Below are positions 26,536-64,000 of a stretch of DNA of 64,000 bases, piece by piece. Every line of letters begins with the position of its first letter. Position 1 is the stretch's first letter. A program made the position numbers and the translations under genes. The DNA lies in the NCBI GenBank assembly GCA_021324775.1, contig JAJPIM010000029.1:1-64000 (forward strand), in the 5' to 3' direction. The notes under the pieces were generated by a model that saw only the letters and a list, made by a program, of their open reading frames with translations, ran no database searches and was not told the DNA's origin. This stretch comes from Gemmatimonadota bacterium. Lineage in GTDB: Bacteria; Gemmatimonadota; Gemmatimonadetes; Gemmatimonadales; Gemmatimonadaceae.

Positions 26536-29247
26536 TCAGTGTGGTGCGATGTCGCCGTGGGGGTCGCCCCGCGGCGGCACCGGGGGACCGAGTGGTATCA
26601 CCTTGCCGGGTGGATTGCTGCGGGCGCCGGGCCGGCGGCCTGGCGGGGGCGTGTTGGGCACGGCGGCGGGCGCGGAGGGGCGACGCAGTCCGAACTCGAG
26701 CACCTCGTCCATCGTCTTCACGGCGTGGAACGTGATCGAGCTGCGGATCTCCTCGGGGAACTCATCGAGCTCGCGCAGATTACCTGCGGGGATGATCACG
26801 TGGCGGATCCCGTAGCGGTGCGCGGCGACCGACTTCTCCTTGAGGCCGCCGATCGGCAGGACGCGCCCGCGGAGAGTGACTTCGCCCGTCATCGCGATGT
26901 CCCCGCGCACCGGCACGCCGGTGAGCGCGCTAATGATGGCGGTGGCGATCGCGATGCCCGCGCTCGGTCCGTCCTTGGGTGTGGCGCCCGCCGGGATGTG
27001 AACGTGAATGTCCCGTCCGCCTCCCCGTGCGAGATCTTCGTCGATCCCGAGATCGCCGGCACGCCGCCGGGCGTAGCTCAGGGCAGCGGTTGCGGACTCC
27101 TTCATGACCTCGCCGAGTGTGCCGGTCAACTGGAGTTTGCCACGCCCGCGCACGACGCTGACCTCGATGTCGAGAATTTCCCCCCCGACGGCGGTATACG
27201 CGAGCCCACGTGCCACGCCGACCGAATCCTCGAGTGTCGTTTCGTCCGGATCGAATGGCGCCGGTCCGAGAAGGTCGGGGAGCGCGGCCGCGGTGATCGT
27301 CACGGGGCCGGCAGGCGCGGGACCAATCGCCGGTGTTTCGACCCGTTGCCGCGCGACCTTGCGGGCCACGCGCGCGATGCGGCGCTCGAACTCGCGGACC
27401 CCGGCTTCGCGGGTGTATTGCCGCATGATCTCGCTCAGCGCGCCGGGCTCCCACGTCACGTCGTCCGGCTTCAGGCCGTTGCGCTCGAGCTGCTTGGGCA
27501 CGAGGAACTGTCGTGCGATCGCGACCTTTTCGTGGTCGAGATATCCGGTGAGGCGGATCACCTCCATGCGATCGCGGAGCGCATCGGGCACATTCGCGAG
27601 CGTGTTGGCGGTCGTGATGAACAGGACCTGGGAGAGATCGTAGTCGATCTCGAGGTAGTGATCATTGAACGCGCTGTTCTGCTCCGGGTCGAGCACTTCC
27701 AGCAGCGCAGCGGCGGGATCGCCCCTGTAGTCCTGTCCCAGCTTGTCGACCTCGTCGAGCAGAATCACCGGGTTGATCACCTCGGCGCGGCGCATCGCCT
27801 GGAGGATGCGTCCGGGCAGGGCACCGATATAGGTGCGCCGGTGTCCGCGGATCTCCGCCTCGTCGCGGACGCCACCGAGGGCCATGCGGGCGAACCGGCG
27901 GCCGAGGGCTTTGGCGATCGAGCGGCCGAGCGACGTTTTCCCGACGCCGGGCGGACCCACGAAGCAGAGGATGGGGCCTTCGAGGCGGCCGACGAGGCCG
28001 AGCACCGCGATGTAGTCGAGGATCCGGTCCTTCACTTCGGCGAGACCGTAGTGGTCCTCATCGAGCACATGCCGCGCGTGATCGACGTCGAGGATGTCGT
28101 CGGTGCGTTCGGTCCAGGGGAGGCCGAGGAGCCAATCGAGGTAATTGCGGCCGACGGTCGTCTCGGGGGACATCGGCGCCGTGCGCCGGAGCTTCCGCAA
28201 CTCGCGCTGTGCCCGGGCCTGCACCGCTTCGGGCAGTGCGCGCCGCTTGATCTCGGCATCGAGATCAGCCAACTCGTCGCCGTCATCCTGCCCGAGCTCG
28301 CGCGTGATCGCCCGGAGCTGCTCCTGCAGGTAGAACTCCCGCTGGTTCTGGAACAGCGATCCGCGCACATCCTCATCGATCTTGCGCTCGAGGCGAAGAA
28401 GCTCGATCTCGGCGCTCAGCACATCCGACAGCGCCTGCCAGAGGCTTCCGAGTGCCGGCGTTTCGAGGAGCTTCTGGCGGACGTCGTGTTTGACCGCGAG
28501 GTGGGCGGCGATGGCGATGGCGCGTCGCTCGTCGGATTCGATCGACTGGACGAACACGGCGGTCTCGTCGGGAATCCGCCGGTGCATCGAGACGTACTCC
28601 TCGAACCGCGAGAGCACGCGCCGGCTGAGGGCCGTCTGGGCGTCCTTGGCGGCGTCGGCGCCCTCGTGGCCCGTGTCGCCGGGGGCCGAGCCGGGTAGCG
28701 GTGGGTGGGGATTCGGGCTGCCGGCCGTTTCTCCGGCGGGGGAGTCCCGGGGGGTCCGTGCGGACTCGGAAGGGCCTTCTGGGGCGCTCCCGGGCTTTGG
28801 TGGGTATCCCTCGTCTCCGGACTCCGCCCCGGGCTCGGGGGGCGCCGGTGGGGCCACGAAGGGGTATGCCACCACGGTGGCCCGGTGCCACCCGCCGGCG
28901 AGGCCGTAGCGAGTCACCCGGGCCCTGGCGACGCCTTCGACGAGCACCTTGGCGGTACCGTTCGGCAGCCGGGAGCTTTGGAGGACGCGGGCGACGACCC
29001 CGACCCGGTACAGGTCGCTCGCGTTAGGGTCCTGGATCTCGCCGCTTCGCTGGGCGACGAGCAGGACATACTTGTCCTTCCCCGGGCCACCGGCCGATTC
29101 GGCAGCATCGAGAGCCGCCAGCGAGGCGGGGCGGCCCACGAGCAACGGCATCACGACATACGGGAATACCACGACCTCGCGCAGCGGGAGCACCGGGAGG
29201 CGGTCCGGGGTGGCGAACTGCTCGGCGTCGCGGGCGAAGAGGGGCAT
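26536..29247 (-). CDS. lon: ATP-dependent protease Lon (with low-complexity insertion)
   Basis: Full-length Lon, 903 aa, about 100 longer than usual. The N-terminal substrate-binding domain ([20 protein letters not shown]) is interrupted at about residues 132-208 by a Pro/Gly/Glu/Ser-rich insertion. The AAA module has [19 protein letters not shown] and [13 protein letters not shown]. The protease module has catalytic Ser762 in [11 protein letters not shown] and Lys805 in [10 protein letters not shown] Pro-rich tail of about 45 residues ends the protein. It degrades damaged and regulatory proteins in the cytoplasm. It lies in the tig-clpP-clpX-lon-engB block. A second, separate lon lies at the right edge of the window. 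Confidence 0.97.
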
Positions 29248-57865: not shown

Positions 57866-58651
57866 GTGGCGCTCATCACCCAGGCTCGCGATCTCAAGCG
57901 ACGCAAAGCACGTGAGCGGACGGGCTATTTCGTCGCCGAGGGCGTGCGGGCCGTCGAGGAGCTGCTCCGGTCGCCGCTCGACGTGCACGGAGCGCTCGTG
58001 AGCCCTCAGCTCGCGGCCACGCCGCGCGGCATCGCACTGCGGGAGGCGCTAGCGGCACGAGTGGCGACCGTGACTGAGGTGGACGACGCCGACTTCGCGA
58101 CCGCCGCGGACACGGAGACGCCGCAGGGCGTGCTGGCGATCGCGGCGATTCCAGCGCGAACGTGGGATACGGTGCCCGCTGTGGACCCGCTCCGCGTTCT
58201 GGTGCTCGACGCGGTGCAGGACCCCGGCAACGTGGGCACGATGCTCCGGACGGCGGCGGCGCTGGGAGTCGCGGCAACCGCCGCCCTGCCCGGCACGGTT
58301 GACCTGTGGAACGCGAAAGTCGTCCGTAGCGCGATGGGAGCCCACTTCACGCATCCGGCGTTTGCCACCACATGGCAGGAACTCGACGCGTGGCGGGCGC
58401 CTCACCACGTGGCGCTATGGGGCGCCGATGCGCGGGGAGTCGCGCTGGAGGCCAGGCCGGCCGGCCTGCCCGCACGGCTGGCCCTGATCGTAGGGAACGA
58501 GGGCGCCGGCCTCACGGCGGATGCGCGTGACCGGATAGAGCGCCCCGTCGCGCTGCCGATCGCGGATGTCGAGTCCCTCAACGTCGCCGTCGCGGCGGGG
58601 ATTCTGCTGTACACGTTGCGGCCGGACGCCGGCGTCCGGGCTGGCTCGTGA
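57866..58651 (+). CDS. SpoU/TrmH-family RNA 2'-O-methyltransferase
   Basis: SPOUT-fold RNA methyltransferase, 261 aa. The substrate-binding N-terminal domain is LITQARDLKRRKARERTGYF followed by VAEGVRAVEELL. Motif 1 is LDAVQDPGNVGTMLRTAAAL, motif 2 LIVGNEGAGLTADARDRIER, motif 3 LPIADVESLNVAVAAGILLY. Typical targets are 2'-O-ribose sites in 23S rRNA or tRNA. The GTG at 57866 fits the family N-terminus better than the longer frame from 57818. Followed by the prepilin peptidase with a GTGA overlap. Confidence 0.9.
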   Translation: MALITQARDLKRRKARERTGYFVAEGVRAVEELLRSPLDVHGALVSPQLAATPRGIALREALAARVATVTEVDDADFATAADTETPQGVLAIAAIPARTWDTVPAVDPLRVLVLDAVQDPGNVGTMLRTAAALGVAATAALPGTVDLWNAKVVRSAMGAHFTHPAFATTWQELDAWRAPHHVALWGADARGVALEARPAGLPARLALIVGNEGAGLTADARDRIERPVALPIADVESLNVAVAAGILLYTLRPDAGVRAGS

Positions 58652-59553
58652 GCGCTCTCCTCGTGAAGCCGCTCCTGGCGGTTGCTGCCGGGGCGCCCCT
58701 GGGCGCGGGCGCGGCGCCGCAGGGGATACCGCCCTGGCTCTGGTGGGGGATGATCTTCATGCTCGGCGCCATCATTGGCTCGTTCCTCAATGTGTGCATC
58801 GCGCGGTGGCCGATGGAGCTGTCGGTGGTCGCGCCGCGGTCTCGATGCCCCCGGTGCCAGCGGCAGATCGCGTGGTACGAGAACATCCCCCTCGGGAGCT
58901 GGGTCGCGCTCGGCGGACGATGCCGAGGCTGCAAGCTGCCGATCTCGATCCAGTATCCGGCGGTGGAACTGCTCATCGCGCTCGGATGGCTGGCGGCCTT
59001 CGCCACCATCGCGTCCCCGCTCACGGCACTGCGGGTCGCGGTGTTTGGGACGATCCTGGCGGGCGTCGCGATCACCGATCTCCAGTACTACCTGATTCCC
59101 GATGGGTTCACGGTGTTTGGCCTGGTGTGGGTCAGTATCACGTCCGTGGCCGGCGTGCTGCTCCGCGATGGGGGCGGATTCGCGAACCCCTACGACGCGA
59201 TGATCGGCGCCTGCGTCGGGGCCGGCGCGATTTCGATCATCGGGTGGCTCGGTGAAGTGGTGCTCAAGAAGGAAGCGATGGGGTTCGGCGACGTCACACT
59301 GATGGCGGTCGTGGGCGCCGCGGTCGGTCCTGGCAGGACACTGCTGACCGTATTCATTGGCGCGGCGCTCGGGGCCATCGTCTTTCTCCTGTTCGTGATG
59401 CCGTTCACGTGGTTCCGAAGCCGCCAGAAGCACGTCCCATTCGAGCCACCCCTGGTCCCATTCGGAGTATTCCTTGCGCCTGCGGCACTCGTGGCCTTGC
59501 TTTGGGGATACAGGCTGATCGCGTGGTATCTGGGCCGGATTGGGTTGCTCTGA
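58648..59553 (+). CDS. pilD: Prepilin peptidase (A24, PilD-type)
   Basis: Membrane aspartic peptidase and N-methyltransferase that cleaves type IV pilin or type II secretion pseudopilin leaders, 301 aa. N-terminal membrane segment IFMLGAIIGSFLNVCIARWP is followed by the zinc-type CPRC...CRGC domain. Catalytic aspartates are in AITDLQYYLIPDG and GFGDVTLMAVVG. About seven further hydrophobic segments. The GTG start overlaps the methyltransferase stop. No pilin genes are next to it. Confidence 0.93.
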   Translation: MSALLVKPLLAVAAGAPLGAGAAPQGIPPWLWWGMIFMLGAIIGSFLNVCIARWPMELSVVAPRSRCPRCQRQIAWYENIPLGSWVALGGRCRGCKLPISIQYPAVELLIALGWLAAFATIASPLTALRVAVFGTILAGVAITDLQYYLIPDGFTVFGLVWVSITSVAGVLLRDGGGFANPYDAMIGACVGAGAISIIGWLGEVVLKKEAMGFGDVTLMAVVGAAVGPGRTLLTVFIGAALGAIVFLLFVMPFTWFRSRQKHVPFEPPLVPFGVFLAPAALVALLWGYRLIAWYLGRIGLL

Positions 59554-59565
59554 GAGCATTGAGAA

Positions 59566-59663
59566 GGACTAGGGATTAGGGATTAGGGACTAGGGATTAG
59601 GGATTAGGGACTAGGGACTAGGGATTAGGGACTAGGGACTAGGGATTAGGGACTAGGGACTAA
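59566..59663 (+). repeat. Heptamer array after prepilin peptidase (R5)
   Basis: Fourteen heptamers in strict phase, all GGACTAG or GGATTAG (the last GGACTAA). G-rich on the + strand. The spacer up to the Clp gene (59664-59820) shows nothing further that I can support. Confidence 0.97.
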
Positions 59664-59820: not shown

Positions 59821-61044
59821 GTGGTGACCGTGCGGTCTCGTGATTCGGAACTGGACCGGTACACTCGCGATCTGACGGACGAGGCGCGTAACGGCAGGCT
59901 CGATCCCGTCCGCTGCCGTGATCCGGAGATCTCGCGCGTGATCGACATCCTGCTTCGCTACGGGAAGAACAACCCCGCGCTGGTGGGACCCGCCGGCGTC
60001 GGCAAGACCGCCATCGTCGAGGGACTCGCGCAGCGAGTGGTGGCGGGTGCGGTTCCCCTGGCCCTACGGGACGTGCGCGTGCTCTCGCTTGACCACGTCG
60101 CCTTGCTGGGCGGGACCACCTATCGCGGCCAATACGAGGCCCGGATCACGGGGCTCGTGGATGGCGTGACGGTCGCCGGCGACGTCGTGCTCTTCATCGA
60201 CGAACTGCACAACCTGATCGGCCAGGGCACGGCGATGGGCGCCGCGATGGATGCGGGCAACATGCTCAAGCCGGCGCTCGTTCGCGGCGACTTCCGGGTG
60301 ATCGGCGCGACGACGGAAGACGAATACATGCGATGGGTGTGCGGCGACCCGGCGCTGGAGCGCCGGTTCCAGCGGGTCGATGTGCGCGAGCTGTCGTCGC
60401 TCGACACTCTCGAGATCCTGCGCGCGCGCGTCGTGCGCCTGGAGCGCCATCATGGGGTCGTGATCTCGGATGACGCGCTCGACGCGGCGGTGCGTCTGAC
60501 CGACGAATACGTGACCGACCGTGCGCGTCCAGACCGAGCGATCGACGCCCTCGACGAGGCGTGCGCCCATGCGCAGGCCTTGGCGGTCTACTCGGATGCG
60601 ACGGCCGCACTCCTCGCGGAGCGGCGGGCCGTCTTACGCACGCATCCGCCGGACCTGATAGCAAGATCGATGACGACTGATGCCGGAGATGGGGAGGACA
60701 TGCCGGACCAACTGGAGCGATTCGCGCGCACGGGATTCGACGCCCTGGGGCGTTTCGGCGCCGAGATCGAGGCGGCCATCACGGGACGCCGTACGGGCAG
60801 CGCGGCGGGACGCCCGAGGGAGACGGAGCCGGTCGTTCCAGGCGACGCGGCGGCCGGCGCCGGTGCCGGCTACGGGATGGACTCGAGCGCGACCGTCCCG
60901 CGTCCGGTGCGCGCCGTCGCGGAACTGGACGTGATGGTCCGGCACCAACTCGCCGACGAGGGGATCGTCGTGCGTGGCCACGACATCGCGCGCGCGGTGG
61001 CAGTGGCCACGGGACGGACCATCGTGTGGCGCGCGGCACAATGA
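59821..61044 (+). CDS. ClpA/ClpB-type AAA ATPase containing only the D1 domain
   Basis: 407-aa Clp-like ATPase. The N-terminal part matches the ClpB/ClpC junction and D1 exactly: DLTDEARNGRLDPVRCRDPE, then Walker A GPAGVGKT (56-63), pore-loop GTTYRGQYEAR (Tyr101), Walker B VLFIDELHNLIG, sensor VIGATTEDEY and the Arg finger in ALERRFQ. A helical part of about 100 residues follows. The protein ends VRGHDIARAVAVATGRTIVW, the segment that in ClpB precedes D2, so D2 and the N-domain are missing. No ClpP-docking loop is seen. It overlaps the metalloprotease start by ATGA. Confidence 0.88.
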   Translation: MVTVRSRDSELDRYTRDLTDEARNGRLDPVRCRDPEISRVIDILLRYGKNNPALVGPAGVGKTAIVEGLAQRVVAGAVPLALRDVRVLSLDHVALLGGTTYRGQYEARITGLVDGVTVAGDVVLFIDELHNLIGQGTAMGAAMDAGNMLKPALVRGDFRVIGATTEDEYMRWVCGDPALERRFQRVDVRELSSLDTLEILRARVVRLERHHGVVISDDALDAAVRLTDEYVTDRARPDRAIDALDEACAHAQALAVYSDATAALLAERRAVLRTHPPDLIARSMTTDAGDGEDMPDQLERFARTGFDALGRFGAEIEAAITGRRTGSAAGRPRETEPVVPGDAAAGAGAGYGMDSSATVPRPVRAVAELDVMVRHQLADEGIVVRGHDIARAVAVATGRTIVWRAAQ

Positions 61045-62294
61045 TGCCGCGCCTCCTGTATCGCGCGGCGGCGGGCGCGTTCGTCGCGGGCGCTGCGGCG
61101 TGGAGCCTGGCGTGTGCGCAGGACACGCATGCCGCGCCCGGCGCTGGCCGATATGCCAGTGACGTCGACGACGCCGTGCCCAAGATCGAGCGCGCGGTGG
61201 GCCTCAAGTTCAAGCGGCCACCCAAGGTCGAGCCGCGCTCACGCGCCGAGGTGCGGGCGTTCCTGGAAAAGGAATTCAACACCAGTCACGCGGAGCGGGA
61301 CCTCGAGGGCAGCGAGATCGCCAACAAGCTGTTCGGTCTCATACCCGACACCATGCATCTGCGAGCGGAACTCGAGAACCTGCTGACCGAGCAGATCATC
61401 GGGTTCTACGACCCGAAGACCAAAGTCCTCTATGTCGTCGATGGCGCGCCGGCCAACGAAGTCACGACGGTGATCTCGCACGAGCTGGTGCACGCGCTGC
61501 AGGACCAGTACCTGAATCTCGACTCATTGCAATCGATCGAAGGGGACGACGATCGTGCGGCGGCCGCGGAGGCCGTGATCGAGGGGCAGGCCGTGTTCGA
61601 CCAACTGGTGGCGATGTCCGGAACGCGGAACTTCATGACGATGATCCCCGGCGGCTGGGATGGGATCCGCCAGCAGATCCGGGAGAATCAGAACGCCATG
61701 CCGGCGTTCGCGAACGCGCCGATGGTACTCCAGGAGACGCTGATCTTCCCGTATCTGAGCGGCGCCGAGTTCATGCGGGATTTCGATCAGCACGAACCGG
61801 GGAAGCAGCCATACAGCGACATGCCGGCGTCGACGCAGCAGATTCTGCATCCCGAGCAGGCGTATTTCGGAACGCGGAAACAACCGCTCGAGGTGGCGCT
61901 TCCGGCGCCGCCCGGCGGGGCGTCGCGGGTGCGCTACTCGAACGACATGGGCGAGTTCGACACGCGGCTCTTCCTGTTCCAGCATCTGAACGACCAGGCG
62001 GCCGCGATCCGTGGCGCGGCGGGTTGGGCCGGGGACCGATACGAGGTCGTCGATACGCCCAAGGGGCCGGCGCTGGTGTGGGTGACGCTGTGGGGCACGC
62101 CGGTGGCGGCCGGGCAGTTCCATGACGAGCTGCTGCAGACGATCAACGCGCGGTACGGCGCGCATCCCGCGCGGACGGTGTCGGCGACGCCGGTGGAGAT
62201 CAGCGGGCATCCTGCCGTCGTGTATGTCGATGCGCCGGCGGGGACGCCGGCGGGGACCCAGTGGGTGGAGTTGGGGAAGGTTGGGGTGAAGTAG
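61041..62294 (+). CDS. HExxH lipoprotein metallopeptidase, unnamed family
   Basis: 417-aa probable lipoprotein with a zinc-peptidase motif. The signal is AAGAFVAGAAAWSLAC with Cys25 as lipid site. The active-site region is ISHELVHALQDQY (HELVH 146-150); a later AAAEAVIEGQAVFDQL helix carries a likely third ligand (Glu180). Two conserved-looking blocks follow, FPYLSGAEFMRDF and DTRLFLFQHLNDQAAAIRGA, then a beta-rich C-terminus. I recognise no named family. The ATG at 61041 overlaps the Clp D1-only gene stop (ATGA), a direct translational link to that ATPase, but one is cytoplasmic and the other exported. Confidence 0.85.
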   Translation: MMPRLLYRAAAGAFVAGAAAWSLACAQDTHAAPGAGRYASDVDDAVPKIERAVGLKFKRPPKVEPRSRAEVRAFLEKEFNTSHAERDLEGSEIANKLFGLIPDTMHLRAELENLLTEQIIGFYDPKTKVLYVVDGAPANEVTTVISHELVHALQDQYLNLDSLQSIEGDDDRAAAAEAVIEGQAVFDQLVAMSGTRNFMTMIPGGWDGIRQQIRENQNAMPAFANAPMVLQETLIFPYLSGAEFMRDFDQHEPGKQPYSDMPASTQQILHPEQAYFGTRKQPLEVALPAPPGGASRVRYSNDMGEFDTRLFLFQHLNDQAAAIRGAAGWAGDRYEVVDTPKGPALVWVTLWGTPVAAGQFHDELLQTINARYGAHPARTVSATPVEISGHPAVVYVDAPAGTPAGTQWVELGKVGVK

Positions 62295-62412
62295 ACGAAC
62301 AGAATGGAGACGAACAGAAAGGAGACAAGCAGAAAGTAGACAAACACAGAGTAGACAAACAGAAAGTAGACAAACAGAAAGTAGACAAACAGAAAGTAGA
62401 GAGTAGAAAGCG
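62290..62412 (+). repeat. Purine-rich array (P10), 15-bp period
   Basis: AGACGAACAGAAAGGAGACA and four copies of ACAAACAGAAAGTAG (15-bp period) with variants, purine on the + strand. It begins at the metalloprotease stop codon and is the longest purine array in the window. Confidence 0.92.
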
Positions 62413-62517: not shown

Positions 62518-63279
62518 CTAGAGGCCCACCAGTTTTGTCAGGCCGAACAGGACGACGGCGATCAAGCCGCCCAGGACGTAGCCTGTGCGGATGATCAGGC
62601 GTAGCTCCCGGTCGATCACACCGCGGATCAGTTCCTCGATCCGGTCGTGGCTGAAGGCCAGCACCTTGCGCTCCACCATCTCCTGTACGCGGAAGCGCTC
62701 GACCAGACTCGGGATCTGTTGCTCGATCCAGGTCCAGATCGCGGGTGACAGAGCGTGCGCGAGGCGCTGCGCCGTGTCGGGCGGCAGCCAGCGGCCCGGC
62801 CGGCCGATCGGCTGTTCCAGTGCTTCCACGATTTTGTCCACCGTGCGGTCGGTCAGGACGAGCCGGGCCACCATGCGCTCGCGAAAGGGAAGATCGTTGA
62901 CGAAGCGAGTCAGGAAATCCTGCACCGCGGTCTCCACGGCCGGTACCAGCTCGGCCGGAAGCATCGTGGTCACGGATCCGTGCTCCTTGTCGAGCGCATC
63001 GCTGAGGATGGCGGCGAGCTGGCCCTCGAGTGCGTCGCGCAGGCCCGAGCGCGCGATCTCCTCCATCAGATCGTGGGGTGTGAGAAGGCGCTCGCCGACC
63101 GTACGGCCGATGCTCTTGGCGAGCCGCGGCTGATTCTTGGGGATCGCGCCCTGGAACCCGAACCGTTTCTGCCGCGGACGGAAGAGCATCCAGACAGCCA
63201 CGGTATCCGAGAAGCCGCCGGCGATGGTGCCGATGGCGACCTGAATCGCGAACTCCAGCCAGGGGTTGTGGACCGCCAC
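62518..63279 (-). CDS. DUF445 family membrane protein
   Basis: 253-aa protein of the DUF445 type. The N-terminal hydrophobic segment is FAIQVAIGTIAGGFSDTVAV, followed by WMLFRPRQKRFGFQGAIPKN, a signature of the family, then PRLAKSIGRTVGERLLTP. A long amphipathic central part (alpha-helical, with FLTRFVNDLPFRERMVARLV) leads to a C-terminal membrane helix (YVLGGLIAVVLFGLTKLVGL). Family members sit in the inner membrane and have no known reaction. Convergent with the metalloprotease gene; the lon at the right edge lies 115 bp upstream. Confidence 0.85.
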   Translation of the reverse strand: MAVHNPWLEFAIQVAIGTIAGGFSDTVAVWMLFRPRQKRFGFQGAIPKNQPRLAKSIGRTVGERLLTPHDLMEEIARSGLRDALEGQLAAILSDALDKEHGSVTTMLPAELVPAVETAVQDFLTRFVNDLPFRERMVARLVLTDRTVDKIVEALEQPIGRPGRWLPPDTAQRLAHALSPAIWTWIEQQIPSLVERFRVQEMVERKVLAFSHDRIEELIRGVIDRELRLIIRTGYVLGGLIAVVLFGLTKLVGL

Positions 63280-63394: not shown

Positions 63395-64000
63395 TCACGA
63401 CCTCGGTTTGCTGCCGCGACGCGCTGACATGAGCGGCGTCGCCGGTGAGCGCTTGGAGACCGGTGTCGTCGCAGCCGGGGTTGCCGCGGCCGGTGGCGCG
63501 GGCGACGCCTCTTCCTCGGGCGGGTGGTCGGCGAGCAGCGCAGGCGATGTGGTCGCCACCGACGCCGGCGCGCCGTCGAGCAGCGCGATCCTCATCACGT
63601 CATCCATCGTGGTGACGAAGCTGAACGCCATGTTCGCACGGACCTCGTCGGGCACATCGCGCAGATCCTTCTCGTTGGTCTTGGGGAGGATCACCTCGCG
63701 AAGGCCCGCGCGGTACGCGGCGAGCACTTTCTCTTTCACACCGCCGATCTCGAGGGCCTTGCCACGCAGCGTGACCTCGCCCGTCATCGCGAGATCGCGC
63801 CGCACGGGCCGGCGCGAGAGGACACTCGCAATGGCGAGGGTGACGGCGATGCCGGCACTGGGGCCGTCCTTGGGGATCGCGCCCGCCGGGAAGTGGATGT
63901 GAAGGTCGCCTTCCTTGAAGTCCTTCTCGTCGATGCCCAGTATCGCCGCGCGGGACCGGACGTAGGAATACGCCGCGTCCACCGACTCGCGCATCACGTC
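63395..64000 (-). CDS. lon: Second Lon protease, C-terminal part (cut by window edge)
   Basis: About 200 residues of the protease domain and tail, continuing beyond the window. Catalytic Ser lies in [12 protein letters not shown] and Lys in [30 protein letters not shown] and [15 protein letters not shown] are further Lon blocks. The tail of about 50 residues is Ala/Pro/Thr-rich. It is clearly distinct from the lon at 26536 and closer to ordinary LonA in its last 130 residues. Start and N-terminal domains are not in the window. Confidence 0.95.

Follow-up and report, generated by a model that had tools for sequence, protein, structure and literature searches.

The window analysed here, a stretch of 64,000 nucleotides from a Gemmatimonadota bacterium, carries a gene for a AAA+ ATPase of the Hsp100/Clp type followed by a gene for an exported metallopeptidase. 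The genes and repeats of this locus are as follows.

58648-59553, + strand: A24 prepilin peptidase of the PilD type (PF06750, PF01478; synteny), the conserved upstream neighbour
59566-59662, + strand: 21-bp tandem repeat with a 7-bp sub-unit GGACTAG, between the A24 gene and the ATPase gene (TRF)
59821-61044, + strand: D1-only (NBD1-only) Hsp100/Clp AAA+ ATPase, 407 aa (open reading frame, ClpB D1 profile, AAA and AAA_lid_9, conserved family)
61041-61044, + strand: ATGA overlap of the ATPase stop with the peptidase start (sequence; overlap kept in relatives)
61041-62294, + strand: exported HExxH lipoprotein metallopeptidase, 417 aa (invariant columns, signal peptides, NF038145, AF2)
62518-63279, - strand: DUF445 protein, convergent neighbour (PF04286, 1.5e-23)
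63395-64000, - strand: 3' part of a lon gene, convergent and running past the window end (Lon_C, 1.9e-60); the full-length gene is C8:63581-65875

The ATPase frame runs from a GTG start to a TGA stop, with alternative in-frame GTG starts at 59824 and 59830, and its last four nucleotides overlap the ATG of the peptidase at 61041. Three full-length lon genes are present in the genome, two of them on the contig of the window, and one of the three lies at 26695-29196.

Domain make-up of the ATPase

The ATPase can be divided into three parts.

59845-60585, + strand: D1 core, residues 9-255 (invariant columns in the family alignment and in full-length Clp D1s)
60586-60906, + strand: variable region replacing the ClpB M-domain, residues about 256-362 (family alignment, AF2 pLDDT)
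60907-61041, + strand: residues 363-407, the C-terminal part of the D1 small domain, equivalent to the ClpB segment ending in WTGIPV (alignment, AF2)

In a profile search, residues 9-252 of the ATPase matched positions 154-397 of the ClpB profile TIGR03346 (E 3.5e-93, 313.5 bits), and the same profile found no match to D2 anywhere in the protein. The score is below the curated cut-off of 1232 bits for membership of ClpB, and the protein has one AAA+ module only. AAA and AAA_lid_9 were the Pfam matches. No match to Clp_N was found in the ATPase, and in its homologues only about 8-25 residues stand ahead of D1. At the other end, the final residues DIARAVAVATGRTIVW align with EIAEVLARWTGIPV of E. 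coli ClpB (TGIPV at residue 543), which is the block just before D2. No ClpP-binding loop of the IGF/LGF type was seen in the C-terminal sequence, D2 being also absent, and the protein has no export signal.

The D1 core contains the Walker A (GPAGVGKT), pore loop (TTYRGQYE), Walker B (LFIDE), sensor 1 (GATT), arginine finger (ALERRF) and sensor 2 (RPDRAID) motifs, and the ATPase of the window has kept intact versions of Walker A, Walker B, sensor 1, RRF and the pore YRG. The features that mark an Hsp100/Clp D1 module (Walker A and B, sensors, paired arginine fingers, pore YRG and AAA_lid_9) are thus all found. The sequence-only reading had described an ATPase consisting of D1 alone, ending at the block that precedes D2 and with its catalytic and pore residues intact, and had called for its profiling against ClpB; both the profile match, with D1 matched and D2 absent, and the alignment with E. 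coli ClpB bear this description out.

At the place of the M-domain lies an insert of about 100 residues that shows no clear homology to it. It has one conserved short helix (ALxRFGAEIEA, about residues 295-321) and a disordered segment at 324-358; in the AF2 model, pLDDT falls below 50 at residues 287-295 and 324-358. The model as a whole (mean pLDDT 82) contains the large and the small AAA+ domain, both complete. Its tail forms a strand (383-384) and a helix (386-397) with pLDDT of 96-98, so the small domain is predicted to be folded to its end and the AAA module to be complete. Within this C-terminal piece the family alignment shows G381, V383, R391, V393 and W403 to be invariant. The nearest solved structures by sequence are those of ClpC and ClpB, with S. 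aureus ClpC as the top PDB match, and a Foldseek search with the model also returned ClpC and ClpB as top matches, including the ClpB NBD1 structure 4hse (E 9.5e-25).

Compared with ClpB/Hsp104 (class I Hsp100, TIGR03346), the D1 core is about 56% identical to the ClpB of its own genome and keeps all the catalytic, pore and arginine finger residues, whereas the N-domain, a canonical M-domain and D2 are missing and the protein belongs to a separate clade with 13 signature residues of its own. The unfoldases ClpC and ClpA also resemble it in D1 but, unlike it, possess a D2 and a ClpP-binding loop.

Distribution and conservation of the D1-only family

A homologue of the ATPase was found in 67 of the 395 Gemmatimonadota genomes, all 67 from the same order as the window, in three families of it (f1, f2 and f3), so the D1-only gene is not a chance event. 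A scan of genome contigs with short patterns, whose results are the matches listed, gave among them about 24 Gemmatimonadota loci that align far beyond the D1 core, with 52-71% identity. All the D1-only copies that are not cut by a contig end stop at the same point and are 376-432 aa long. In a test set, members of the family scored E values of 1e-105 to 1e-120, against 1e-78 or weaker for full-length ClpB and ClpC. Outside Gemmatimonadota this short-pattern scan found no D1-only protein, the other best matches listed being full-length or cut by a contig end, and no second D1-only copy was found in genomes that lack the ATPase gene. One short D1-only match elsewhere, cut by a contig end, came from a genome that bears the ATPase (G110, C18). 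As far as searched, the family thus appears restricted to a single soil-bacterial order.

A tree was built from 87 D1 domains, 28 of them D1-only rows; these 28 grouped together in a single clade (support 100/100), its stem 1.24 changes per site long. This clade is separate from the ClpB (C2) and the ClpC (C16) of the same genome, a position that rules out a recent copy of either of them. Two further origins were considered and discarded: among the best 80 viral relatives the sole D1-only cases were two sequences truncated by a contig end, which argues against a phage origin, and PADLOC gave only weak generic AAA matches, against a defence system.

The alignment of the 28 members showed invariance of Walker A (G56, G59 and G61-K62-T63), Walker B (F125 and D127-E128), sensor 1 (T164-T165), the arginine fingers (R181-R182), the sensor 2 region (P237-D238) and the pore (R102-G103), with Y or F as the pore aromatic in 27 of the 28. 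Most of these catalytic and pore residues are also invariant in the 59 full-length Clp D1s. By contrast, 13 signature positions (R31, C32, D42, L45, H92, Q135, V154, W172, L191, A202, R203, L207 and T227) are fixed or nearly so in the family and rare or absent in the full-length proteins, in a comparison of the 28 with the 59 D1s. The dN/dS ratios of D1, taken from close, non-saturated pairs only, as distant pairs are saturated and uninformative, were 0.047, 0.059, 0.094 and 0.165. Judged from its sequences, the D1-only ATPase is a real, unusual and ancient family that is under selection and has intact catalytic residues.

The lipoprotein peptidase and the gene pair

The second gene encodes a protein with a signal peptide, a lipobox cysteine (Cys25) and the motif HELVH at residues 147-151, with E181 as the likely third ligand. 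H147, E148, H151 and E181 are invariant in 46 aligned peptidases, a pattern of HExxH plus a downstream acidic ligand that is gluzincin-like. A signal peptide ending in an invariant Cys, nearly always after a small residue, is present in all 46; a strict lipobox fits 17 of them and a relaxed one 43. The protein would therefore be exported and lie outside the cytoplasm. Its AF2 model has a pLDDT of 91, and a sequence search gave no reliable PDB match. It was matched by the Hvo_1808 family NF038145 at 1e-29 (104.1 bits, cut-off 200) and more weakly by DUF6782 (PF20573; 20.4 bits, cut-off 27), a weak match that is also seen in 43 of the 46 members. The lipoprotein thus shares the HExxH core and the nature of an exported surface protein with these two families while scoring below both curated cut-offs, and the earlier view of an exported HExxH peptidase of no recognised family stands as regards export and has to be softened as regards its relatives.

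The order of the locus in relatives is SpoU methylase, A24 prepilin peptidase, ATPase and peptidase, and then the convergent DUF445 and lon genes. The A24 gene is directly upstream of the ATPase wherever the contig reaches, often 2-20 nt away. The peptidase is directly 3' of the ATPase in all the Gemmatimonadota loci listed by the contig scan, except two that are cut by contig ends (L018 and L021), and in a sample of 150 genomes the ATPase was directly 5' of the peptidase in all 26 genomes that have it. In nearly all ATPase loci (not L014, L086 or L090) the ATPase frame has a start codon for the peptidase 4-19 nt before its end, always in the same relative frame, some of the loci in this survey being the same genome sampled twice. 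The ATGA overlap thus probably reflects translational coupling of the two genes. The overlap and the neighbouring DUF445 and further lon had been put forward by the sequence-only reading, and both were confirmed. The same reading had named a pair not conserved together as a refutation; in relatives the pair proved to be conserved. Co-occurrence holds in one direction: the ATPase is always accompanied by the peptidase, whereas the peptidase, present in 115 of the 150 genomes against 26 for the ATPase, often occurs without it.

Genomes free of the ATPase keep the same locus intact, with the A24 and peptidase genes side by side or with a four-gene module between them. In the latter relatives (L109 3490-6343, L112 3503-6437) the slot of the ATPase holds an ECF-like sigma factor, a zinc-finger-like anti-sigma factor and two repeat-rich exported DUF4097-like proteins, as named by eye from their translations, and the presence of this sigma/anti-sigma module suggests an envelope-stress setting for the peptidase. 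A full-length ClpB at this position was looked for in relatives and was not found; the slot contains the D1-only gene, nothing, or the other module. On the tree of the neighbour genes, the ATPase requires 5 gains or losses, versus 14 with shuffled labels, and the ATPase tree broadly mirrors that of the neighbours (an agreement judged by eye), a pattern consistent with inheritance along with the locus and clean loss on repeated occasions. The job of a gene lost several times would therefore be dispensable.

Some minor features of the DNA were also recorded. The gap between the A24 and ATPase genes is 267 nt here, including the 21-bp repeat; many relatives have just 2-20 nt. Another tandem repeat, with a unit of 15 bp (AAGTAGACAAACAGA, 7.5 copies, 62289-62400), follows immediately on the peptidase gene, where this gene and DUF445 converge. 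A scan for sigma-70 promoters and terminators gave nothing above chance. The terminal Trp of the ATPase, an invariant residue encoded by TGG, is often within GA[A/G]TGG (61020-61044; homologous ends in L004-L026), where ATG/GTG is an in-frame start of the peptidase, and the conservation of this Trp may partly stem from the overlapping start codon.

Possible functions of the ATPase

Double-ring Hsp100 proteins invite the question of how much either AAA+ ring can achieve by itself. For D1, the closest engineered case is the fragment NBD1-M of T. thermophilus ClpB (residues 141-534), which binds nucleotide, forms ATP-induced trimers, not hexamers, and hydrolyses ATP without D2, both of its neighbouring arginines being needed for assembly (PMC4239642). 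The ATPase has nearly the same limits (AAA1, middle region and small-domain tail) and the same paired arginines; it differs in being a natural gene and in having a shorter, partly disordered insert in place of the M-domain. Its best reading, by analogy, is as a natural counterpart of NBD1-M. In p97, an N-D1 truncate shows an active D1 when the D1-D2 linker is kept (PMC4730245). As both constructs are active, a functional stand-alone D1 is plausible. Against this, isolated Hsp100 domains often lose activity (PMC7343390).

A natural disaggregase with a single NBD, derived from NBD2, exists in Skd3 (human CLPB; PMC7343390). Like Skd3, the ATPase is a natural Hsp100 relative with one NBD and no protease partner; unlike it, the family has NBD1 instead of an NBD2-type domain with ankyrin repeats, and no added substrate-binding domain. 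The D1-only family appears to be the NBD1 counterpart of Skd3, under selection across one bacterial order, and a search of the open-access literature turned up no account of a D1-only Clp occurring in nature. Being an evolved protein and not a cut-down construct, it would allow a direct test of assembly, threading and remodelling by a D1 ring.

We propose, as an evenly balanced judgement, that the ATPase, by its sequence an order-specific Hsp100 reduced to NBD1, is a stand-alone single-ring remodeller of the cytosol that is made together with an envelope peptidase without handing substrates over to it. The protein would be cytosolic, bind ATP and assemble by way of the conserved D1 interface, including the trans arginine pair R181/R182, and as a single ring it would use its D1 pore loop to pull on protein clients or remodel them. 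With D2 and the ClpP-binding loop both absent, no protease would be attached. The lipoprotein metallopeptidase would be an operon partner acting outside the cytoplasm, produced jointly with the ATPase with no transfer of substrates between them. Together with the upstream A24 prepilin peptidase the pair would probably form a unit of envelope or secretion proteostasis, this functional link being the least certain step; from the gene neighbourhood, joint expression in such an operon is most likely what the coupling reflects. A bolder version, which we hold tentatively and a little below even, is that of a natural single-ring Hsp100 with NBD1 as sole motor and with its own insert and clients, translationally wired to an envelope lipoprotease as a mirror image of Skd3. 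If true, a module thought to be auxiliary in ClpB would have become a complete stand-alone remodeller. By the accepted view ClpB is driven mainly by D2, and a ring of D1 alone may therefore remodel weakly. The ATPase is not one half of a split ClpB: matches to TIGR03346 in its own genome at E<=1e-20 were the full ClpB, the full ClpC and the D1-only protein, and no D2-only gene was found with this profile.

The main rival to single-ring remodelling is regulation of ClpB or ClpC, in which the D1-only protein would join the D1 rings of these proteins, as mixed hexamers or capping rings, and tune their activity. The protein has the same residues at the D1 interface as full-length Clp D1s, both ClpB and ClpC are encoded in the same genome, and ClpB halves can complement in trans (cited in PMC7343390). 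We nevertheless regard it as unlikely, if the most serious of the alternatives: the 13 family-specific residues and the long stem indicate divergence from the D1s of ClpB and ClpC, and full-length Clp proteins are kept in all the ATPase-free genomes checked. A role as helper of secretion or pilus assembly, with the ATPase acting on cytosolic precursors of the A24 prepilin peptidase or of lipoprotein export and with the export pathway as its partner, would account for the constant, often very close A24 gene, but the A24 neighbourhood is the same without the ATPase, and we give this role a clearly smaller chance.

Strict adjacency and translational coupling could also point to a membrane-bound machine in which proteins unfolded by the ATPase would pass straight into the HExxH peptidase, the arrangement imagined in the sequence-only reading. 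Its conserved, coupled pair was recovered, but the working machine was not upheld and is very improbable. The peptidase has a lipoprotein signal with an invariant Cys and the ATPase has no signal, so that the two products are almost certainly, as predicted from their sequences, on opposite sides of the membrane, and a cytosolic Clp ring could therefore not thread substrates into the peptidase. In addition, most genomes with the peptidase have no ATPase in an otherwise intact locus, and the peptidase tree does not need the ATPase. Operon coupling can thus mislead, the tightest genetic partner of the ATPase sitting across the membrane. The other possibility raised earlier, a decaying relic of a full-length ClpB after loss of D2, is the least probable of all and is refuted for the family as a whole: no remnant of D2 lies downstream, the same truncated architecture is found in the three families, the catalytic motifs are all conserved and dN/dS is low. 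What speaks for decay is the repeated loss of the gene and a frameshifted copy in a sister genome (G104, L149 3868-3873), in which an additional base within the codon region of Walker B splits the frame and which may be a pseudogene or an assembly error.
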